The position numbers and the translations under genes were made by a program. 64,000 nucleotides of DNA from Alphaproteobacteria bacterium (GTDB taxonomy: Bacteria; Pseudomonadota; Alphaproteobacteria; Micavibrionales; Micavibrionaceae): contig WGMJ01000003.1 in NCBI GenBank assembly GCA_016125135.1, positions 62,001 through 126,000 of the forward strand. The letters run 5' to 3'. Positions 35,115 through 43,832 of the stretch are shown here, in pieces. Numbering within the stretch: the stretch's first letter is position 1; every line of letters begins with the position of its first letter. Below the pieces are notes generated by a model. It had not been told where the DNA came from and did not search any database. It saw only the letters and a program-made list of their open reading frames with translations.

Positions 35115-36863
35115 ATGCAGGATCAACCAACCACACAGCCAAGCACCAGTAACAGTGTAACGCAGAAGCCGCATTTATTTGCGCGGCTGGGGCGTTTGCT
35201 CTGGCATAAGCAACTTTTATTCTACACGTTCCGCTTGTGGCGTAATGCAAAATTTGTAGCGCCCACCAACCATGCCGAAGTCATACAACAAGTGTGGGAA
35301 GAAGGCCGTGGCACGGGGCGCTTTGCCTTTATGACCACCATGTCATGTGCGATTGCAATTTTGGGCTTATTGCTATCCTCTCCCGCAGTTGTCATTGGTG
35401 CGATGTTGATCTCCCCGTTAATGGGGCCGATTGTATCGCTTGGCTTTTCATTCTGTATTTTCGATGTCGAGCAAATGCGTAAATCACTTGGCGCAATTGC
35501 GCTGGGCATTTTGCTCTCGCTTGCCATCTCGATCGTGATTGTAACACTCTCGCCCCTCACTGACCCAACACCTGAAATTCTGGCGCGCACGAAACCTAAT
35601 TTATTTGACCTGCTTGTGGCCGTATTCTCGGGCCTTGCAGGCGGGTATGCTGTCATTAAAAGCCGTGGCGCGACCATTGTGGGCGTGGCCATTGCCACCG
35701 CCCTGATGCCGCCGCTGGCTGTTTGTGGCTATGGTGTTGCCACAGGCATATGGAGCATTGCATGGGGCGCTGGTTTTCTTTTCATGACCAACCTGCTTGC
35801 AATATCCTTAAGCGTTCTGGGTCTTGCAAAGTGGTACGGGTTTGGCTGGCAGCACAGCTCGAAGCACACACTTCTACAGACAGCTGCTATTTTTATTACT
35901 TTTGTTGTACTGTCTGTGCCACTGGGGCTTTCGCTGAAAAGCATTGCCTACCAATCACTGGCAACGAAAAGCGTAAAAGCAGAAATTAACGAGTATTTCC
36001 ACTTTGCCAGCAGCCGTATTTCCACCTTCTCGATTTTATTCGGGAAAGACGGAAAAATTAATGTTGATTGCGTCCTTGTGACCAATGCCTACGCACCAGA
36101 AGCCGAAAAGGAAATCGGCGAGAAGCTTACAAAAGAGCTGGAACGAGATGTTGTGCTTTCCCTCAACCAGATTGTTGTTGCTGCGCGCCAACAAAAAGAA
36201 GCAAACCCCACAGAAACCAAAGTGGGAGACACCGCACTTGCAAACACCCCCGCGCCCAAAGCCACCTTGCTGAACCCGCAAGAAGAAATTGCACAAGCGA
36301 TAAAAAATACAGCTGTCTTCCCCCTGAATTTTGTAAAAATCGACCCCGAAAAAACAACAGCCATCATCCAACCCAAAGCTGGCAAGGATATTACACTTGC
36401 CTTATTGCGCACGGTTGAGAATAACCTCGCGGTGAATTTCCCCGCCTGGACAATTTCAGTGATTCCGCCTGCGGGTGCACTGCCGCCTGTAATGTTCGAT
36501 ATGGGGGGCGATACTGTTTCGGAAGCCACCGCAGAAACCATTGATAATATTTTATGGGCGCTACAACGCTGGGAGATTTATAATGTCAGCGCTGTGGGCT
36601 TTGCGAGTTCAGCAGGCGAAGTTGAGAGTTTTGACAATAGCTCGCTTGCTTTCCGCCGCGCACGGGCCGTTGCTACCAAATTGCGTGAGGCTGGCATCAA
36701 AGTGCAGATACGCGCCGAATATAACCGCGCAGAGCAGAAACGCGATGAAAAGCTTTACGGGCTTACAAACTTCCATAAGGTCGAGATCAGACCGCGTGGT
36801 GATGTGACCTTGCCAGATGAAGTGCCCACCCTACAGCAGGTGGAAGAAGAAAAGGCCAATTAA
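35115..36863 (+). CDS. DUF389 membrane protein fused to OmpA-like domain
   Basis: Residues ~50-300 are the DUF389 (TIGR00341-type) hydrophobic domain with five to six membrane segments and the conserved SSPAVVIGAMLISPLMGP motif followed by GYAVIKSRGATIVGVAIATALMPPLAV in pieces. After a long soluble region, residues ~455-550 match the OmpA/Pal peptidoglycan-binding fold: VMFDMGGDTVSEATAET, then AVGFASSAGEVESF, then the NSSLAFRRARAVATKLREAGI block. This suggests an inner-membrane protein whose C-terminus contacts peptidoglycan. DUF389 proteins usually lack it. The stop codon lies exactly where the tRNA-derived repeat of the adjacent integrated element begins. Confidence 0.85.
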   Translation: MQDQPTTQPSTSNSVTQKPHLFARLGRLLWHKQLLFYTFRLWRNAKFVAPTNHAEVIQQVWEEGRGTGRFAFMTTMSCAIAILGLLLSSPAVVIGAMLISPLMGPIVSLGFSFCIFDVEQMRKSLGAIALGILLSLAISIVIVTLSPLTDPTPEILARTKPNLFDLLVAVFSGLAGGYAVIKSRGATIVGVAIATALMPPLAVCGYGVATGIWSIAWGAGFLFMTNLLAISLSVLGLAKWYGFGWQHSSKHTLLQTAAIFITFVVLSVPLGLSLKSIAYQSLATKSVKAEINEYFHFASSRISTFSILFGKDGKINVDCVLVTNAYAPEAEKEIGEKLTKELERDVVLSLNQIVVAARQQKEANPTETKVGDTALANTPAPKATLLNPQEEIAQAIKNTAVFPLNFVKIDPEKTTAIIQPKAGKDITLALLRTVENNLAVNFPAWTISVIPPAGALPPVMFDMGGDTVSEATAETIDNILWALQRWEIYNVSAVGFASSAGEVESFDNSSLAFRRARAVATKLREAGIKVQIRAEYNRAEQKRDEKLYGLTNFHKVEIRPRGDVTLPDEVPTLQQVEEEKAN

Positions 36864-36920
36864 TCAGGAAATGGTGGGCGGTACAGGGTTCGAACCTGTG
36901 ACCCCTTGCGTGTCGAGCAA
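36863..36920. repeat. Left attachment site (attL)
   Basis: This 58-bp stretch is identical to 43775-43832. It includes the tRNA-Val 3' end with CCA complement, T-arm, variable loop and part of the anticodon arm, plus 9 bp beyond the tRNA. Its first base is the last base of the DUF389-OmpA stop codon. Confidence 0.95.
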
Positions 36921-37511
36921 TCCTAACGCCTAACCACTTCACTTCGTTCCGTGTTTCGGCTTAGTACTCTACCGCTATTCACAATAAGAAAAACCCAATA
37001 AAACAGGCAATTTCCTAACAACTTCTCTAACACAGATTATTTTATCACCGCAAGGTTAATCTTTTGGCGGGGTTAACTCGTTGCACCCTAATTGCACCAG
37101 ATTTGTAATTGGATATTTAGGAGGGGGACAATGTACCACTCTCTGTAACAATCCTCTGTAACACTATTGTTCCTCTATATAGTGTGCGGATTAGACAGGG
37201 GCTTTTCTTGCCATTTTAAGACTCACTGATTCGTTTTAGAGGTTTAGGCTAGGGCTATACCAGACAGCATCCAGACTGCATTGGATGAGTCAGAATAGAG
37301 TCGGAAACAGGGGTTTATATTCAAGGCAAGTTATACCCATTTATTCAAGTAAAAGGCTCTTAATCTTGTCTTAACTATCTAGGTAGGCAAGCCCATACGG
37401 GGGAATTTTCAAGTGCCTGTTATATTAGATGTCCGTACAAAAATGTATGCAGTATTCCTGAAACCGGAAGGTACTTGACATCTATCAACTATTATGCAAT
37501 TCTACTCCTAG
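36921..37511. other. Non-coding left arm of the element
   Basis: I see no gene in this stretch of about 590 bp. It holds paired TTGCACC motifs (37081-37098), a strong Shine-Dalgarno-like AGGAGGGGG followed by a five-codon frame (37131-37148), and two CTCTGTAACA direct repeats at 37141 and 37154. It ends just before a strong terminator, so some of it is probably transcribed. Confidence 0.6.
37081..37098 (+). repeat. Paired TTGCACC motif, left end
   Basis: TTGCACC occurs at 37081-37087 and again at 37092-37098, 11 bp apart. The second copy is part of a 14-bp identity (TTGCACCAGATTTG) with the right end at 43698. These are likely arm-type binding sites of the integrase or an accessory factor. 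Confidence 0.6.
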
Positions 37512-37551
37512 AAACGCCACAAGTGTATTTAGCTTGCGGCGTTTTTTTTTG
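37512..37551 (+). terminator. Terminator inside the element, upstream of the methyltransferase gene
   Basis: AACGCC-A-CAAG and CTTG-C-GGCGTT form an interrupted stem with a 9-nt loop, then nine T residues. It lies 22 bp before the next ATG with no coding gene before it, so it must end a non-coding or very short transcript, or act as an attenuator for the downstream pair. Confidence 0.85.
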
Positions 37552-37572
37552 TTTTAACAATGGGGTTTGATA

Positions 37573-38304
37573 ATGAGTTATTTAACACAGAACGATTTGA
37601 GCAAAGAAGATATAAACCGGCTTATTGGTTCACAAGCCTATAGGCAATCTACACATCCTGACCATAACAGGCTGCAAACACTCGTTAGAGATTGGTTTGT
37701 AAAAGAATACGATAAAGCTACACCCAATACGCCTTGGGTAAATCTAGGGGACTGTTTACTGGTAGGAGAAGGCAATCTTAGTTTTGCAAGAAGCCTAACC
37801 GATAAACCAAAAACAGGCGTCACAGGTATGGTTGCTTCAACCTATGAAACTGGGAACGCTGTTTCAGACGAAGCAAGTAAGAACGCAAAACATCTAAAAC
37901 AAAAAGGGATAGCTGTATTATATGGCATTGATGCCAGAAAATTAGAGCAGAAACTAAAAGGCATAAAGTTTGATACTATTATTTTCCAGTTTCCCAATGT
38001 TGGCAGCCGTGACCCTAAATACGGCCATAACCCTAACCATATTTTACTGCGCGGCTTTCTAAAGAGCGCAGCCAGTTACCTTAAACCGGACGGTAGAATA
38101 TTGGTTACTACTGTAAACAGTCCTCACTATGAAGGAGCATTTCAGGTAACAGAAGCTGCAGAGTTTGCAGGATATAAACAACCTGTAAGCTATTCTTTTG
38201 ACCCTGATGATTTTACTGGCTATGTTCATACCAATACAAATGATGATGACAGTGCATTAGATAATCACGCCAAATTTATAACATGGGAATTTAGGCTATC
38301 GTGA
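37573..38304 (+). CDS. BMT5-like (DUF2431) Rossmann-fold SAM methyltransferase
   Basis: The start is ATG 37573 with GGGG upstream. The protein (243 aa) shows the BMT5-like family pattern: SAM site LLVGEGNLSFARSL near residue 65, then VASTYETGN, GIDARKLEQKLKGIKFDTIIFQFPNVG near 118-141 and the NHILLRGFLKSAASYLKPDGRIL block. The yeast member methylates N3 of a 25S rRNA uridine, so an RNA uridine or another RNA base is a possible target here; that is inference. The gene overlaps the dioxygenase gene by 4 bp (GTGA), which implies coupled translation and joint function. A ~60-aa N-terminal extension of unknown role precedes the methyltransferase fold. Confidence 0.85.
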   Translation: MSYLTQNDLSKEDINRLIGSQAYRQSTHPDHNRLQTLVRDWFVKEYDKATPNTPWVNLGDCLLVGEGNLSFARSLTDKPKTGVTGMVASTYETGNAVSDEASKNAKHLKQKGIAVLYGIDARKLEQKLKGIKFDTIIFQFPNVGSRDPKYGHNPNHILLRGFLKSAASYLKPDGRILVTTVNSPHYEGAFQVTEAAEFAGYKQPVSYSFDPDDFTGYVHTNTNDDDSALDNHAKFITWEFRLS

Positions 38305-38891
38305 GTTTGCTATTTAACATTGCCGATGAAAAGCCGAATATTGAAGGGCTACAATATCTCCCCGATTATATTACCGGAGATAATGAAGCTACGCTTATAC
38401 AGGCTATTGATAGCCAACCGTGGATAACCGATTTAAAACGGAGAGTACAGCATTACGGCTACCGCTATGATTATAAAGCCAGAGCCGTAAATGCTGATGC
38501 TTACCTAGGGGAGTTACCAGAGTGGTTACAGGCATTAACTCAACAACTTTATACCGATAAAATATTTAGTGAGTTACCAGACCAAGTAATAGTAAACGAG
38601 TATATGTCTGGACAAGGCATATCGGCACATATTGATTGTGTTCCCTGCTTTGCTGAAACAATAGCATCATTAAGTCTAGGTTCTGATTGCATCATGCAGT
38701 TTCATAACCCACAATCAGGCCAGAAATGTGAACAGGTATTAGAGAGAAGAAGCCTAGTTATATTATCCGGTGCAGCAAGGTATGAATGGACACATGCTAT
38801 ACCAGCTAGAAAATCAGACATTATTCAGGGAATAAAAATAGAGAGAAGCCGGAGATTATCCCTTACATTCCGCAAGATGCTACTTAAATAA
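38301..38891 (+). CDS. AlkB-family Fe(II)/2-oxoglutarate dioxygenase, ALKBH8-like
   Basis: A GTG start overlaps the methyltransferase stop. The 196-aa protein matches the dioxygenase part of ALKBH8 closely by eye: RRVQHYGYRYDY, LPEWLQALTQQLY, then QVIVNEYMSGQGISAHIDC with the iron ligands His and Asp near residues 110-112, ASLSLGSDCIMQF, WTHAIPARK with the second iron His near 164, and the two 2-oxoglutarate arginines in RRLSLTFRK. ALKBH8 hydroxylates a modified wobble uridine in eukaryotic tRNA, whereas classic E. coli AlkB repairs alkylated DNA. The tRNA-type likeness and the coupled methyltransferase favour an RNA substrate. Confidence 0.9.
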   Translation: MSLLFNIADEKPNIEGLQYLPDYITGDNEATLIQAIDSQPWITDLKRRVQHYGYRYDYKARAVNADAYLGELPEWLQALTQQLYTDKIFSELPDQVIVNEYMSGQGISAHIDCVPCFAETIASLSLGSDCIMQFHNPQSGQKCEQVLERRSLVILSGAARYEWTHAIPARKSDIIQGIKIERSRRLSLTFRKMLLK

Positions 38892-38946
38892 AGCCGGAGC
38901 AATACAGTATATATCTATTGGCCGTTGTAATGCTGCCCCGCGCAGC

Positions 38947-39609
38947 CTAAACGGCTTTCAATAGAGTGACTAAAACATCCATCCGCAACCACTGACGTCT
39001 CCCTCTATGCTCAACCCTAATACAGGGATATTTACCACTCCCCCTCATTTCTAATGGATAGACTTTTCTACCAATCGTAACCGACTCTCCTGTAAATATA
39101 ATAGAGGGTTTAAATTTGTGAGAGCTGGGAGCCGCAGTTGCTCTAGTAGATAGAACCTTCCTTCTCATTTCAGCTAAGGTATTACAATTAGCAAGACTAA
39201 CTGGTGTTGTTAAATTGGCTTCTATTCTCTGTTTTATCTTCTGCTTTAACCCTCCTGATAATTTCTTATTCCATACTGCGGGGTATAGCTTTAAATCAGA
39301 GTATTTACTTTGAATTTCTTTAAGCATTTCCGTTTGATTGCGGTTTGGAAACTTTCTATCCCCCACGTTAGCTATAAGCTCTGCCAAAGCCATATAAGCC
39401 TTGGTCACCCCCTTTTGACCTTGAGGGCGTACCATCATAACCCCTGCACTAAAGTTAAGCCCTTCAAAATCAGGGTTACGGACTTTTAAGTCCTCCAAGG
39501 CCTTTTTAGCAGCATTACTGACTACTTTGTTGGCTAGACTCATTTTCTCTGCTGTAGCACTATATTTCCTGTTCTGCTGGGTTTTTTGCTTCATTGTCTT
39601 AGGTTTCAT
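38947..39609 (-). CDS. Hypothetical basic protein, 220 aa
   Basis: I do not recognise this protein. Start at 39609 (MKPKTMKQKTQQNRKYS); the longer frame to 39684 reads through AT-rich DNA with no ribosome binding site. It is strongly basic, particularly at the N-terminus and in GGLKQKIKQRIEANL, and may bind nucleic acid. The end has a strand-rich domain (SIIFTGESVTIGRKVYPLEMRG, then HRGRRQWLRMDVL). It converges on the dioxygenase gene. It is probably a cargo or regulatory gene of the element. Confidence 0.7.
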   Translation of the reverse strand: MKPKTMKQKTQQNRKYSATAEKMSLANKVVSNAAKKALEDLKVRNPDFEGLNFSAGVMMVRPQGQKGVTKAYMALAELIANVGDRKFPNRNQTEMLKEIQSKYSDLKLYPAVWNKKLSGGLKQKIKQRIEANLTTPVSLANCNTLAEMRRKVLSTRATAAPSSHKFKPSIIFTGESVTIGRKVYPLEMRGSGKYPCIRVEHRGRRQWLRMDVLVTLLKAV

Positions 39610-39811
39610 TGTTAGCTTTCTCAGGGTATGAATATCTAAATATATTATTTTATATACGTAGTATATATTAGTAATTTGGTACAAAAAAGGAGGGTTATTA
39701 AAGATATAGATACCCCCATAAAACCCTACGAAAACTGAAGTCGGCTACTGCCCTTCCTCTATATACTGCACTAATTAGCCATATTGTTTATGTATATCAA
39801 TAGGTTATATA

Positions 39812-41218
39812 CTATTCATCGTTTTGAAAAAACCCATTTGAAAAATCATTCAAGATTATCCGTATTGCATCAGCCTGAGGGTCAGTAGCTCCAGTTCCAT
39901 TAGTCTGGCCTACTCTTGCCTTCGCAAGTTCTATAATCCCGTTGATTTGCTTTGGAACAAGCCGATGGTTTTTACCACTGGGAAAGAGTGCTTTTTTATA
40001 GGCATCCAATATCTCCGTAGCTTGCTGTTCACTGTAGCTTAAATTCCGCAAGCTAGTCTTTATAAAGTTATCTTGTAATTGTATGCCGTTATCAAATTCA
40101 GCTTGCTCCTCAGTCGTTCTCATAGGCTCCCAGTCGGCTACTCTCACTTTAACCACCCCTATTTGCTCTGAGGTCAGTTGTTGCAAAACAGTGGAGGCAA
40201 CTTCTTTATAATCCGCTTCCCCTTTATAATCAGGATGGCGTAACGCTGATAACTCTAGCCAGAATAAAGCCTCTGTTGCGTTAAATGGTGTGCCCCGCCC
40301 CCTACCATAGCTTATACCCAGTAAGTACATAGAGGCTGTATGTCCCCGTTCACTGGCTTTCTGTAGCCATTCGTGACAAGCAACATCATCTTGCGGCAGC
40401 CCTTCTCCCAGCAAATACATAGAAGCAATAACAAACTGTGCTTCTACCCATCCCTGTTGTGCTGACTTCATGTACCAGTGGGCAGATTTTTCTTTATTCT
40501 CTGGTACACCTCGGCCTAAAGCATATAAACGCCCAAGATATTCTTGCGCCTGAGCATTGCCTCTTTCCGCAGCCTTCTGAAACCACTTGGCAGCCTCTAT
40601 ATCATTCTGCTTAACAGCTTCCCCGCTTAAGTATTTTTCCCCTAATCTTACTTGCGCTTGCGTGTCGCCAGCAAAAGCATCTTCTATAGTTCTATATGTC
40701 GTGTTTTTATGGGTTGAAATAAGGTTTTGTATATCGGCATCAGATAATCCTGCAAGCAATGGGCTTTGTTTCCATTTTTCTTCTAGTCCCGAAAAATACT
40801 CTTCGTCTAACTGGATAGTACTTTCACGCTTATACCGACTGTTTTCATCATGCTCTTGCTGTACTACATATCGTTCGCGCTCTTTCTCAATCGCCTGTTG
40901 TACAGCTTCGTCAATTACTTTCTTCTGTTCCCACTCCCTTAAGGCATCATTAGAAGATTCTTTAGTATCCTGAATTATCTTGTCACGAAAACTATTTTGA
41001 TTGGAATACGACTTAGCCCTACGTACTTCATCCTGCAATTTATCAACCCGCTTCTTATTATCGAGTTGCATATCTTCCATTTCTTCATTCAAGCGGAATA
41101 GCTCGTTATCTCTCCTTGATATTTCGTTGTAGATTTGCTGCTGCTGCGCCCATGTATCAGCCTGTACGAATAAAGGCAGCATAGAAATTATTAGGCTAAA
41201 AATGAAAACTATTCTCAT
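39812..41218 (-). CDS. Secreted Sel1-like repeat protein
   Basis: ATG 41218 follows GGGGGAG at a good distance, and the encoded start MRIVFIFSLIISMLPLFVQADT is a signal peptide with a likely cut after QAD. Next is a long coiled coil (about residues 25-120, rich in E/K/R/Q), then about four tandem Sel1 repeats of ~36 residues (AQVRLGEKYLSGEAVKQNDIEAAKWFQKAAERGNAQAQEY and successors). The C-terminal ~120 residues are unassigned. The gene lies behind a structured leader. Sel1 proteins mediate protein contacts in envelope signalling or effector functions; the role here is unknown. Confidence 0.88.
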   Translation of the reverse strand: MRIVFIFSLIISMLPLFVQADTWAQQQQIYNEISRRDNELFRLNEEMEDMQLDNKKRVDKLQDEVRRAKSYSNQNSFRDKIIQDTKESSNDALREWEQKKVIDEAVQQAIEKERERYVVQQEHDENSRYKRESTIQLDEEYFSGLEEKWKQSPLLAGLSDADIQNLISTHKNTTYRTIEDAFAGDTQAQVRLGEKYLSGEAVKQNDIEAAKWFQKAAERGNAQAQEYLGRLYALGRGVPENKEKSAHWYMKSAQQGWVEAQFVIASMYLLGEGLPQDDVACHEWLQKASERGHTASMYLLGISYGRGRGTPFNATEALFWLELSALRHPDYKGEADYKEVASTVLQQLTSEQIGVVKVRVADWEPMRTTEEQAEFDNGIQLQDNFIKTSLRNLSYSEQQATEILDAYKKALFPSGKNHRLVPKQINGIIELAKARVGQTNGTGATDPQADAIRIILNDFSNGFFQNDE

Positions 41219-41238
41219 GACTCCCCCAGAAAGTAAGA

Positions 41239-41266
41239 CGACCACCATGATTTCTCATGGTAGTCG
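41239..41266 (-). promoter_or_regulatory. Hairpin in the Sel1 gene leader, next to the ribosome binding site
   Basis: CGACCACCATGA and TCATGGTAGTCG pair with one mismatch around a TTTC loop. An outer stem, CTCCCC (41221-41226 with the plus-strand A at 41220) against GGGGAG (41266-41271), would cover the Shine-Dalgarno GGGGGAG of the Sel1 gene. The layout suggests translation control. Confidence 0.7.
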
Positions 41267-41282
41267 GGGAGTTAATAACCGT

Positions 41283-41390
41283 CATGTAAACGGCGCAGCT
41301 TATTCGCTTGCGCTATTATATTCGCTGCCTCCCCGACCATAAGTCGGAAAGGCATCACGGGTAACGGCCTGATGCTAAAAGCCGTACATG
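41283..41390 (-). ncRNA. Candidate structured RNA, C4-antisense-like
   Basis: CATGTA-AA-CGGC (41283-41294) pairs with GCCG-TACATG (41381-41390) as an outer stem. Inside are three further hairpins: GCGCA/TGCGC (41293-41313), CCGAC/GTCGG (41334-41348) and GCATCA/TGATGC (41352-41375). A 9-nt segment (41329-41337) is exactly complementary to the leader at 41263-41271, which covers the Sel1 ribosome binding site. This organisation resembles the C4 antisense RNA of phages P1 and P7; the identity of sequence needs a covariance-model check. Confidence 0.5.
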
Positions 41391-41460
41391 AAAGGGTTAT
41401 TACGCCCCGAAACTTATCTCTAAGTTCTACCTAACACGTTAAGCAAATGATTAGAGATCG

Positions 41461-42663
41461 TCAATCCTGTTCGTCCCCCCCTACGCGCCTAACAACTACA
41501 TTTTCATTAAATGTATAGTGATTTTCCTCAACAGTTCTAACTTCTCTAAAAAGACGATTACTCGCTATAAAGTTTGCAAGCTCATCATCTTGCTCCCACG
41601 GGCAGTTTATAACACACCAGCCGACATCATATCCTCCGCCCTCTACCACTGAGAAAGTTATGCCTATGCATTTCTCTAATCTCTGATCATATTTATGCGC
41701 TTCAGTTAATGCTCTGATTAGCTCTCCTTGATGAGGTATTTCTTCGAGAGTTAAGGGGATAAATATGAAGCCACAATTTAACCTTGGAATAGCCATACGG
41801 TATGGCAACTCCTGATTATTAGCGCGTACAGCATCTATTGAAAGCGAATAGCGTTGTTTAAATTGCCGAAGATCACCCCTATTTAATTGGGCTAAGGTAC
41901 TTATGATTGGATAATATCCTGTAGGAGATTCTGCATCAATGATCCTGTCAGCGAACAATCTGATCACGACTGAGATGTCCCACTCTTCAGCCCTATGATC
42001 AATCATTGCCAATGCATAAGAATGACGAAGCTCAGGCTTTTCTTCCACGTTCCCAATCATAATATAATGACCCACTAGAGCTTGCTCAGGCAGAGTGTTC
42101 AGATGCTCTCCCCAAAGATCTATTAAATCTTCCCTATATGATAAATAATCCATAAATTCCGCAGGAGTAAGAAGAGTGCTAATTATGCCTTTATAGTCTT
42201 CTGCAGCAATTATATGGACAACTCCAGCTGTATTACTCTCGTGGTATTTTTTCTTTGCAAGCTCATCAGGTAGCTCTGGTCGTCCTTGAAACACCACTAA
42301 TTTATATAGATTAGCAATTGAGCTTCCTCTTAAAGTAATTTCATGCTCTCTATGGTTTTTCAGAGTAATTTCTTCCTCGGACTCTAAATATCGCAGGGTG
42401 TCCCTAACTTGCTTAGTACCTTTTCTAAGGACTTTGTTTTCAAACCAAGTTCTCTCCCGCTCCAATGTCGAATCTCCTTGGACTTCACGCTCCTTGAGCT
42501 GGAAGATAACGGCACTATCCTCAATAGATAAGAGACTATCCGCGAGCTCTAACTCGACCTCAACATCATCCTCATTACGCGTACGAAAATTTGTATTCGA
42601 GTAAGTAAACTCACGAAAAAAGTACGCTTGATTAAGTTCTGCAATTTCATCTTCAAACGGCAT
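41461..42663 (-). CDS. Hypothetical protein, 400 aa, possible nuclease-like N-terminus
   Basis: I do not recognise this protein as a named family. Residues 35-60 read VELELADSLLSIEDSAVIFQLKERE: an Asp (42) followed 13-15 residues later by Q-x-K (55-57), in a strand-turn-strand setting like that of PD-(D/E)xK nucleases. The evidence is weak. The middle and C-terminal parts are mixed alpha/beta with several conserved-looking Trp and Cys residues (GWCVINCPWEQ). It ends 15 bp from the integrase start on the same strand and is likely co-transcribed with it or placed as cargo. Confidence 0.8.
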   Translation of the reverse strand: MPFEDEIAELNQAYFFREFTYSNTNFRTRNEDDVEVELELADSLLSIEDSAVIFQLKEREVQGDSTLERERTWFENKVLRKGTKQVRDTLRYLESEEEITLKNHREHEITLRGSSIANLYKLVVFQGRPELPDELAKKKYHESNTAGVVHIIAAEDYKGIISTLLTPAEFMDYLSYREDLIDLWGEHLNTLPEQALVGHYIMIGNVEEKPELRHSYALAMIDHRAEEWDISVVIRLFADRIIDAESPTGYYPIISTLAQLNRGDLRQFKQRYSLSIDAVRANNQELPYRMAIPRLNCGFIFIPLTLEEIPHQGELIRALTEAHKYDQRLEKCIGITFSVVEGGGYDVGWCVINCPWEQDDELANFIASNRLFREVRTVEENHYTFNENVVVRRVGGDEQD

Positions 42664-42678
42664 ATTTATTACCTTTTC

Positions 42679-43686
42679 TTAATTTAACTTAGCAGCAACA
42701 TCCTCTGCTTTCAAATGCGTATATCGGAACAGCATCCTATAATCTCTGTGGCCTGATATAAGAGCAACTTCTGGCACTGATAAACCACGCTCAAAAAATC
42801 GGCTAACAGCCTCATGTCGTAAATCGTGAAAGTGCAAGTCATGTAACCCTGCTTTTGTAGCAAGCCTTTGCCACGCTAGTTTTGCGGCATTGTCGGATAA
42901 GGGAAACACATAGCACTCTTTTCGCTTATCCTTGTCCGTATATTCTACCTGTTTTATTTCAGCCAATATTGATATAGCATCACCTGACAATGGGATTGTC
43001 CTTGGGTGTCCATTCTTTGTAACGGGTATATACAGCGTCCTTGTATTAGAGTTTATAGCATCCCATGTGAGGTTTAGTATCTCGCCTCTACGCATCCCCG
43101 TAGCAAGTGCAAACCTAACTAATAATAAGATGTAGGGATTGCGTGAATATTCAAACGCATCCTCTATGGCGTTGTATTCTTCTGCGGATAATCGCCTTGA
43201 CCTTGAATTATTAGCCCTCAGTTTCTTTAGCTTGGATAGTGGATTTAGCTTTATCGGTATATCCCACTCTCGCTCTGCTATATCAAAGGCGTGTTTGATA
43301 ATTCCCAACTCCCGATTAACAGTCCCAGCTTTTACTTCTTTCAGACGTTTATCCCGATAGGTGGCAAAATGTGCTGGTGTAATTTGAGATAGCGTCAGGT
43401 TGGCTATAGGCTCACGCAGGAAGGCATCAATCATATAAGCCTCAGTAACGGCACTCAGCTTCTGGGCTGTGATTATATCTCGATATCTCTCAAGTATATC
43501 CCTGACCTTATATTGGTTAAGTACCCTAACAGGCGTAGGCAACTCACCTCGGTCAGCTTTGACTTCCATAAACCTAGCCCATTCCAAGGCATCGGACTTT
43601 TGATGGAAGGAGCGAGAACCTGTAACAAAGCCCTTACGCCTGATTTGAACACGATACTTGTTTCCACGCTTGACGATGGTCGCCAT
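42679..43686 (-). CDS. int: Tyrosine recombinase (integrase)
   Basis: This site-specific recombinase integrates the element. It has an N-terminal AP2-like arm-binding segment (KRGNKYRVQIRRKGF), a core-binding SAM-like domain (residues ~60-160), and the catalytic domain with Arg in ATGMRRGEIL near 197, HDLRH near 288-292, the second His in SGHRDYRM near 312 and the Tyr in FRYTH near 321. All residues needed for activity appear present. At 335 aa it is intact. It lies 97 bp from tRNA-Val, the usual position for a tRNA-targeting integrase. Confidence 0.97.
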   Translation of the reverse strand: MATIVKRGNKYRVQIRRKGFVTGSRSFHQKSDALEWARFMEVKADRGELPTPVRVLNQYKVRDILERYRDIITAQKLSAVTEAYMIDAFLREPIANLTLSQITPAHFATYRDKRLKEVKAGTVNRELGIIKHAFDIAEREWDIPIKLNPLSKLKKLRANNSRSRRLSAEEYNAIEDAFEYSRNPYILLLVRFALATGMRRGEILNLTWDAINSNTRTLYIPVTKNGHPRTIPLSGDAISILAEIKQVEYTDKDKRKECYVFPLSDNAAKLAWQRLATKAGLHDLHFHDLRHEAVSRFFERGLSVPEVALISGHRDYRMLFRYTHLKAEDVAAKLN

Positions 43687-43697
43687 AGAAAAACCCT

Positions 43698-43715
43698 TTG
43701 CACCAGATTTGCACC
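43698..43715 (+). repeat. Paired TTGCACC motif, right end
   Basis: TTGCACC at 43698-43704 and 43709-43715, 11 bp apart, matching the spacing at the left end (37081-37098). They sit between the integrase start and attR and are probably integrase arm sites. Confidence 0.6.
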
Positions 43716-43774
43716 AAACCCGTGTTAAAAGAATTTTCCTATAATGTGATATACCGTATCTCTTTGATAATTTT

Positions 43775-43832
43775 ATCAGGAAATGGTGGGCGGTACAGGG
43801 TTCGAACCTGTGACCCCTTGCGTGTCGAGCAA
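43775..43832. repeat. Right attachment site (attR), inside tRNA-Val
   Basis: 58 bp identical to attL. It rebuilds the tRNA 3' half, so the tRNA stays functional after integration. Confidence 0.95.

Follow-up and report, generated by a model that had tools for sequence, protein, structure and literature searches.

A structured RNA precedes a Sel1-repeat gene in a likely integrated island

The minus strand of the window, by which we mean the whole 64,000-nucleotide stretch of DNA analysed here, carries a structured RNA flanked by a 400-codon gene without Pfam match and by a Sel1-repeat gene, whose product is probably secreted, judging from a signal peptide seen by eye only. The initial annotation had described a structured leader at 41219-41390 and we could confirm it: the minus-strand RNA of this stretch folds with -74.3 kcal/mol (z -6.72), which 0/200 shuffles equal, and the wider minus-strand stretch 41200-41440 folds with a z of -6.56. 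A sigma-70 scan of 41150-41700 was at chance, with 1 site found and 1.2 expected. The main features of the locus are the following:

36863..43832: likely integrated island at tRNA-Val (58-bp direct repeat and tyrosine integrase)
42679-43686, within the island: tyrosine integrase, matching the general phage integrase family
39812..41218, minus strand: Sel1-repeat protein gene (PF08238, E 2.2e-30)
41218-41216, minus strand: Sel1 start codon (from the sequence)
41227-41221, minus strand: Sel1 Shine-Dalgarno (SD) GGGGGAG (from the sequence)

The two copies of the direct repeat (36863-36920 and 43775-43832) enclose about 6.9 kb, and the second overlies the 3' part of tRNA-Val. Since the repeat encloses them together with the integrase, the leader and the Sel1 gene sit in an apparent integrated island. 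The island also holds two genes that match no Pfam family, and a BMT5-like rRNA methyltransferase gene beside one for a 2OG-Fe(II) oxygenase. A tRNA gene lies within the fetched stretch at only 5 of the 51 loci of the window's order, so that this island setting is not shown to be general. An integron attC site was considered by eye only; the adjoining integrase matches the general phage integrase family.

The leader belongs to the sRNA-Xcc1 family

By using cmscan, we found a match to the Rfam family sRNA-Xcc1 (RF02221) at 41254-41338 (minus strand) with 55 bits, against a gathering score of 53, and by this covariance-model score the window RNA is a member of the family. A second RF02221 copy, directly before a gene start elsewhere in the same genome, scores 36.7 bits, which is below the cut-off. 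The C4 model (RF01695), to which phage P1 as a positive control scores 68.8 bits, had no match in the window region even at E <= 10, nor in 14 loci at E <= 0.1, nor in 11 loci at E <= 10, which rules out C4 family membership. Thus, of the likeness to C4 antisense RNA proposed in the initial annotation, the architecture stands and the family membership does not: of the two observations that were to refute the proposal, the lack of a C4 model match holds, and the lack of compensatory changes does not, in view of strong covariation.

RF02221 matches were found in 32/58 genomes of relatives (over the gathering score in 3), in 37/289 genomes drawn from the class (6) and in 58/398 drawn from the phylum (40), with 0/14 control genomes matching in each of the three surveys. 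We used 51 of the 59 places in relatives, 48 of the 73 new places from the class and 70 of the 99 new ones from the phylum, plus one E. coli locus, that is 170 loci. A form-specific pattern matched 21 stretches, 13 of them from Alphaproteobacteria by label, 3 from two Micavibrio genomes and 5 from other groups, as well as 3 viral contigs. The genus Micavibrio stands under Bdellovibrionota in the NCBI taxonomy, and such MAGs form part of an alphaproteobacterial Micavibrio group.

The whole element has about twice the length of the Rfam model, with a conserved 5' part of about 75-80 nt ahead of the core. From 5' to 3' it consists of an a1/b1 partner, the core with b' in a hairpin loop and then a', a terminator-like hairpin and the SD. 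Its parts in the window are:

41381..41409, minus strand: upstream antisense partner (covariation and own-versus-others permutation)
41409-41405, minus strand: outer CGGGG (precursor structure)
41402-41395, minus strand: a1 (precursor structure; permutation 0/5000)
41391-41381, minus strand: b1 (precursor structure; permutation 0/5000)
41352..41375, minus strand: 5' hairpin K2 (41375-41370 with 41357-41352), interleaved with helix K1, terminator-like by eye
41327..41353, minus strand: anti-P1 hairpin of the precursor (41353-41343 with 41337-41327; minimum-energy fold), which excludes stem P1
41254..41338, minus strand: sRNA-Xcc1 core (cmscan RF02221, 55 bits, and covariation in 33 sequences)
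41337-41329/41271-41263, minus strand: closing stem P1 of the core (RF02221 match)
41328-41295, minus strand: core hairpin 1 (RF02221 match; outer part covaries)
41294-41278, minus strand: core hairpin 2 (RF02221 match; outer part covaries)
41288-41282, minus strand: b', loop of hairpin 2 (covariation and permutation)
41280-41273, minus strand: a', 3' of b' (covariation and permutation)
41229..41266, minus strand: terminator-like hairpin (41266-41239) and T-rich tract (terminator scan and covariation)

The 9-nt complement first noticed between 41329-41337 and 41263-41271 is exactly stem P1. What had been seen as an outer stem really belongs to the duplex of a1/b1 with a'/b', and the element is larger than claimed, the partner of the antisense parts extending upstream to about 41409, beyond the stretch first annotated. 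Helix K1 uses part of b1.

Covariation supports mutually exclusive folds

We tested the predicted helices on an alignment (A4) of 33 selected sequences, 30 from the window's order and 3 from the class, which were included because they can be aligned over their full length. The alignment does not hold divergent subtypes, for example the loci L002, L024, L027, L028 and L030; by eye, these have a second core subtype in which a AUGUCCAAG-like stretch replaces the conserved AAUA-rich internal loop of the core. The precursor structure was scored as the outer CGGGG and a1/b1 paired with a'/b' and the stem P1 3' strand, together with the anti-P1 hairpin, and 87.7% of its cells are paired. For stem P1 and the outer parts of hairpins 1 and 2 (the inner 3-bp stem of hairpin 1 misaligns and was excluded), this proportion is 97.1%, for the 3' terminator-like hairpin 92.6% and for helices K1 and K2 93.0%. 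Doubly changed cells numbered 118 in the precursor structure, 35 in stem P1 with the hairpins, 53 in the terminator-like hairpin and 21 in K1 and K2, against respectively 38.3, 3.7, 12.0 and 3.4 in shuffles, a control that may be inflated by kinship among the sequences, and 19-35, 1-11, 2-11 and 2-9 in slid controls. The anti-P1 helix has 87.9% of its cells paired, and 7 of its 12 pairs vary on one side only.

Since stem P1 is incompatible with the anti-P1 hairpin and with the outer CGGGG pairing, at least two exclusive folds are kept. The comparison shows, at the level of sequence, that two mutually exclusive predicted folds are conserved, and that the stem P1 3' strand is complementary to both the P1 5' strand and the SD.

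A terminator-like hairpin and a stem P1/SD match at the 3' side of the core

The terminator-like hairpin shares 4 nt with the stem P1 3' strand. The terminator scan found 1 hairpin in the window, where 0.3 were expected, and the T tract behind it (TCTTACTTTC) is weak. A stem of at least 8 pairs with at least 4 T in the next 8 nt, within 50 nt, is present in 36/51 copies of the window's order and in only 8/48 and 3/70 copies outside it.

The initial annotation had proposed a pairing with the SD, and 6 nt of the Sel1 SD GGGGGAG (41227-41221) are indeed perfectly complementary to the stem P1 3' strand CUCCCCGAC. For the RBS tests, as for the Pfam families of the genes behind, we used loci with a gene start 5-120 nt behind the match (49 in the window's order and 108 outside it), the starts being picked by script without curation. 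First, the stem P1 3' strand matches its own RBS better than those of other copies in the window's order (4.71 vs 4.31; 0/5000 permutations) and outside it (3.77 vs 3.58; 13/5000); the excess in the window's order, although significant, is small (0.4 nt). A repeat with 48 loci of the order again gave 0/5000, which is no independent control because collapsing removed no locus (48/48). Second, shuffled stem P1 strands reached a mean of 3.61 and a maximum of 4.0 in 500 rounds. Third, in the 24 copies whose stem P1 3' strand is other than CTCCCC, the own strand gives a run of 4.71 vs 4.33 for the common strand. Stem P1 and SD change together in L006, L094, L105 and L004/L093, with L014, L026, L107 and L109 as counter-examples.

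The leader could be a pure transcription attenuator, in which the 3' hairpin would terminate most transcripts, stem P1 would be the antiterminator and the SD pairing would be incidental. The hairpin with its T-rich tail in 36/51 copies, its covariation and the 4 nt shared with stem P1 all fit such a device, which nevertheless leaves the excess of stem P1/SD matching over the permutations unexplained; moreover, such a hairpin or its T tail is missing from 15/51 copies, and the T tract of the window copy is weak. We therefore consider it unlikely that the leader acts by attenuation alone.

Matches of a' and b' to the RBS region are found outside the window's order

Outside the window's order, the b' loop matches its own RBS (5.52 vs 4.12; 0/5000 permutations), with a run of at least 6 in 48/108 own pairs and in 8.0% of mismatched pairs, and a' matches the stretch ahead of the RBS (4.45 vs 3.78; 0/5000). 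In contrast, both are at chance in the window's order: b' vs RBS gives 3.80 vs 3.91 (4291/5000), with a run of at least 6 in 2/49 own pairs vs 5.2% of mismatched ones, and a' vs the stretch ahead of the RBS gives 2554/5000. A test over the whole downstream stretch was weak in this order (235/5000 by run and 132/5000 by energy).

These results bear on the phage-type control of Sel1 that had been proposed, that is classical C4 repression by a processed RNA acting in trans, with the b' loop covering the Sel1 RBS and a' providing specificity. Although the b'/RBS and a' matches outside the order speak for such a mechanism, and although the window copy retains one 6-nt b' match across the start codon (CATGAC/GTCATG), the chance-level pairing throughout the window's own order argues against it, so that classical C4 repression of Sel1 is not supported and we regard it as quite improbable. 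For copies outside the window's order we think the classical C4 sign, repression through a'/b' at the RBS, the more likely one. Within the order, the terminator-like hairpin and the stem P1/SD match appear to stand in for a downstream a2/b2 target. We use "C4-like" for the architecture only, because the plan is shared while the C4 model match is absent and, in this order, the downstream target does not exceed chance.

Most copies have a private antisense code to their own leader

We compared the antisense half of each copy with its own upstream 120 nt and with the upstream sequences of other copies, taking the longest perfect complement. This was done for 51 loci of the window's order and 117 outside it; two of the 170 loci were dropped for short flanks or identity. 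The mean run was 8.20 for own vs 5.51 for foreign upstream sequences in the window's order and 8.46 vs 5.62 outside it, with 0/5000 permutations in both cases. The 34 genomes with at least two fetched copies hold 102 copies, of which 79 match their own partner better than any other, 16 equally well and 7 less well than another one; in the window's order the own partner was strictly best for 27/31, and in a smaller set of 17 genomes for 50/68. All five copies of one genome (G709) match foreign partners as well as their own. Together, these comparisons show that most copies carry what reads as a private antisense code, a' and b' being matched with their own a1 and b1.

An sRNA that acts in trans on distant mRNAs, the role suggested for sRNA-Xcc1 of Xanthomonas and the sXFs of Xylella, would account for the 88-nt RNA mapped by RACE in Xcc (passages of PMC2996969) and for the transcription in cells of all seven Xylella copies (passages of PMC12189769). 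We find it highly improbable here, as the antisense parts match their own copy's neighbouring sequence and change with it, the copies stand ahead of a gene start, and the published targets, in the passages that give them, are predictions.

The copies precede mostly unrelated genes, with antirepressor genes among those outside the window's order

In the window's order, 35/51 copies are followed on the same strand, at a distance of 10-110 nt, by an SD and an ATG that opens an ORF of at least 50 codons, with 0 divergent, against a random mean of 2.5 and maximum of 6. Outside the order, an ORF start lies behind 23/47 copies (random mean 2.4, maximum 7) and 50/69 copies (mean 4.5, maximum 11). The 49 proteins encoded behind copies of the window's order have for the most part no relation to one another: 17 Pfam families occur among them, none found in more than 3 members and none of them an antirepressor family, and the proteins are 5-23% identical to the Sel1 protein in forced alignment. 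These proteins tell against a ligand-sensing riboswitch ahead of a shared regulon, which the conserved AAUA-rich internal loop and the mutually exclusive folds might otherwise recall; as the genes behind have no common function and the core is common to phage antirepressor leaders, we reject this explanation as having very little probability.

Outside the order, the Pfam families behind 108 loci include Rha (8), Bro-N (6), SymE (6), KilA-N (2), AntA (1) and P22_AR_N (1), among others. In a prophage of E. coli EDL933 (L032:6120-6208), sRNA-Xcc1 scores 69.1 bits and lies 40 nt ahead of an antirepressor gene. A BLAST query from this locus, with the initial 40 nt of the antirepressor gene in it, finds matches in 474 of 5426 E. 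coli genomes; in 372 the match spans 80% of the query or more. Among the matches listed, all 40 E. coli records name an antirepressor, a result that is partly built in because the query contains the gene start, and 9/40 match the gene end of the query only. The same query matches 18 phage records, 14 over at least 80% of its length; under the match, 10 have an antirepressor (H18 through the gene end only), 3 another gene and 5 no annotation. A second query (L063) matches 36 phage records, and among the 15 listed the match covers KilA-N in 5, sRNA-Xcc1 in 1, a hypothetical protein in 4 and nothing in 5. A plasmid search with a SymE-linked copy returned 5 records; the gene table, which is incomplete, lists nothing at the matched places. 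About 2.4 kb from the EDL933 copy, at 3594-3768 of L032, a sok antitoxin RNA match adjoins a Hok/Gef gene.

A derived C4-type antisense RNA may control Sel1

We favour, with moderate confidence, the reading that this member of the sRNA-Xcc1 family is a C4-type antisense RNA of derived form and that it regulates the adjoining Sel1 gene. Target mimic (a1, b1), antisense RNA (a', b') and gene would all lie on a single transcript. Stem P1 would be held open in the precursor by the anti-P1 hairpin together with the a1/b1 duplex; its 3' strand would then be available to the SD, and the terminator-like hairpin could form, so that little Sel1 would be made and most transcripts would end as a small RNA. 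An RNase P-like cut at its 5' end, or capture of a1/b1 by another RNA, might trigger stem P1, whose formation would weaken the terminator-like hairpin and release the SD. Which of the folds is the silencing one, and what brings about the switch, are inferences on our part.

Folding of the window RNA agrees in part with this scheme. The best fold, with the a1/b1 duplex, the anti-P1 hairpin and the 3' hairpin, has -93.3 kcal/mol, and a fold that additionally pairs the stem P1 3' strand with the SD is almost as stable (-92.5). Forcing stem P1 in the full-length RNA gives -78.4, a cost of about 15 kcal/mol, and so strong a preference for the full-length fold means that switching would need help. 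The RNA cut at the foot of stem P1 is predicted to form P1 unaided. These modelled folds suggest that the window leader would be off in the precursor and on after processing. The SD exposure computed from the partition function was 0.31 in full and 0.28 in processed RNAs of the window's order (n=46; rise in 17/46; p 0.11), 0.34 and 0.31 in the window itself, and 0.27 and 0.29 outside the order (n=79). As SD exposure does not rise on cutting, over the 46 copies of the order or in the window itself, the sign of the switch (Sel1 on or off) is not established.

The first two bases of stem P1 include a G in 48/50 copies of the window's order and 103/114 outside it, and purine-CC occurs at or just past its 3' end in 38/50 and 64/114 copies. 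These raw counts are at most suggestive of an RNase P 5' end at the foot of stem P1.

A bolder version, which we put forward tentatively as possible and no more, is that a phage immunity-type RNA has been rebuilt, in the bacterial group of the window, into a portable, self-addressed switch, in which processing or antisense binding turns the gene on. The C-rich stem P1 strand would be contested by three G-rich strands (the P1 5' strand, the upstream CGGGG and the SD), and the private code would pair each copy with its own leader. Such a switch, which mobile islands such as that of the window may carry, would control many unrelated genes, several of them, by eye, lipoproteins.

Relation to C4, IsrK and described sRNA-Xcc1 RNAs

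The C4 system of phages P1/P7 (RF01695, with c4-a1b1, RF03163) has the same order of a1, b1, hairpin, closed stem, a'/b' and gene, and the phage P1 record annotates this layout as a1, b1, C4, a2, b2 and icd. The window RNA shares the closing stem with two inner hairpins, with b' in the second loop and a' behind, as well as the upstream a1/b1 complementary to a'/b' (0/5000 in both groups). The downstream a2/b2 at the RBS, however, is found outside the window's order and not inside. Furthermore, C4 controls a phage antirepressor, whereas the window gene encodes a Sel1 protein; antirepressor genes do follow sRNA-Xcc1 elsewhere, in prophages of E. coli and at further loci. IsrK of Gifsy-1 (RF01394) is the upstream part of a leader, ends at a Rho-independent terminator and acts on an antirepressor leader, according to passages of PMC4825925. 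Its model has a 35-bit match, below cut-off, over a1/b1 of phage P1, and neither the window region nor any of the 25 loci examined gave one; the function of the upstream part in the window leader is inferred here, and a role as trans-acting activator, as in IsrK, is one idea for it.

The C4-like sRNAs of Acinetobacter baumannii are likewise C4-type RNAs with many copies in a bacterial genome, according to passages of PMC5320573, which also describe C4 processing and loops. They match the Rfam C4 motif, whereas the copies found here are of the sRNA-Xcc1 type and tied to the gene behind.

Our copies share the core sequence and fold with sRNA-Xcc1, whose Rfam model covers only the 87-nt core, without 5' partner, 3' hairpin or SD match. 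In a 2011 paper, sRNA-Xcc1 was reportedly called integron-encoded and trans-acting, as citing papers have it. In Xanthomonas it likewise precedes a gene, which is symE of integron cassettes (passages of PMC12444791). Passages of PMC2996969 describe it as 88 nt by RACE and, in the view of 2010, possibly Xcc-specific. In those of PMC12189769, the Xylella copies sit in an island with phage genes, and a table has C4, isrK and sRNA-Xcc1 in neighbouring rows. An EHEC table, from the part of PMC5331693 consulted, gives sRNA-Xcc1 a value of 40293 (column head outside the passage) and a low ribosome coverage of 0.02. The literature passages give no tested mechanism for sRNA-Xcc1, and those from the one paper found to name both sRNA-Xcc1 and C4 antisense do not relate the two to each other; our literature search found no paper mentioning both sRNA-Xcc1 and an antirepressor.

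Taken together, sRNA-Xcc1 elsewhere has the build and the position of the phage immunity RNA C4, and in the window's group it looks like a rewired switch ahead of many different genes. Our observations suggest that a C4-type system has left phage immunity and been reused, with changed wiring, for many bacterial genes. An orphan RNA family, interpreted in plant pathogens as a trans-acting sRNA with a link to virulence, would gain a testable function, that of a C4-type antisense regulator of the gene directly behind it.

Multiple copies were seen in two further genomes. One of about 1.4 Mb (G151) has 13 sRNA-Xcc1 places (L036, L115-L119, L121 and L123-L125 among the loci), and several of its copies stand ahead of small proteins that share, by eye, a 'YDIK'-like stretch near their start. 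In the other (G023:C1:675697-676065), two same-strand sRNA-Xcc1 copies have their starts 278 bp apart, a pair that recalls the array of five reported in Xylella.
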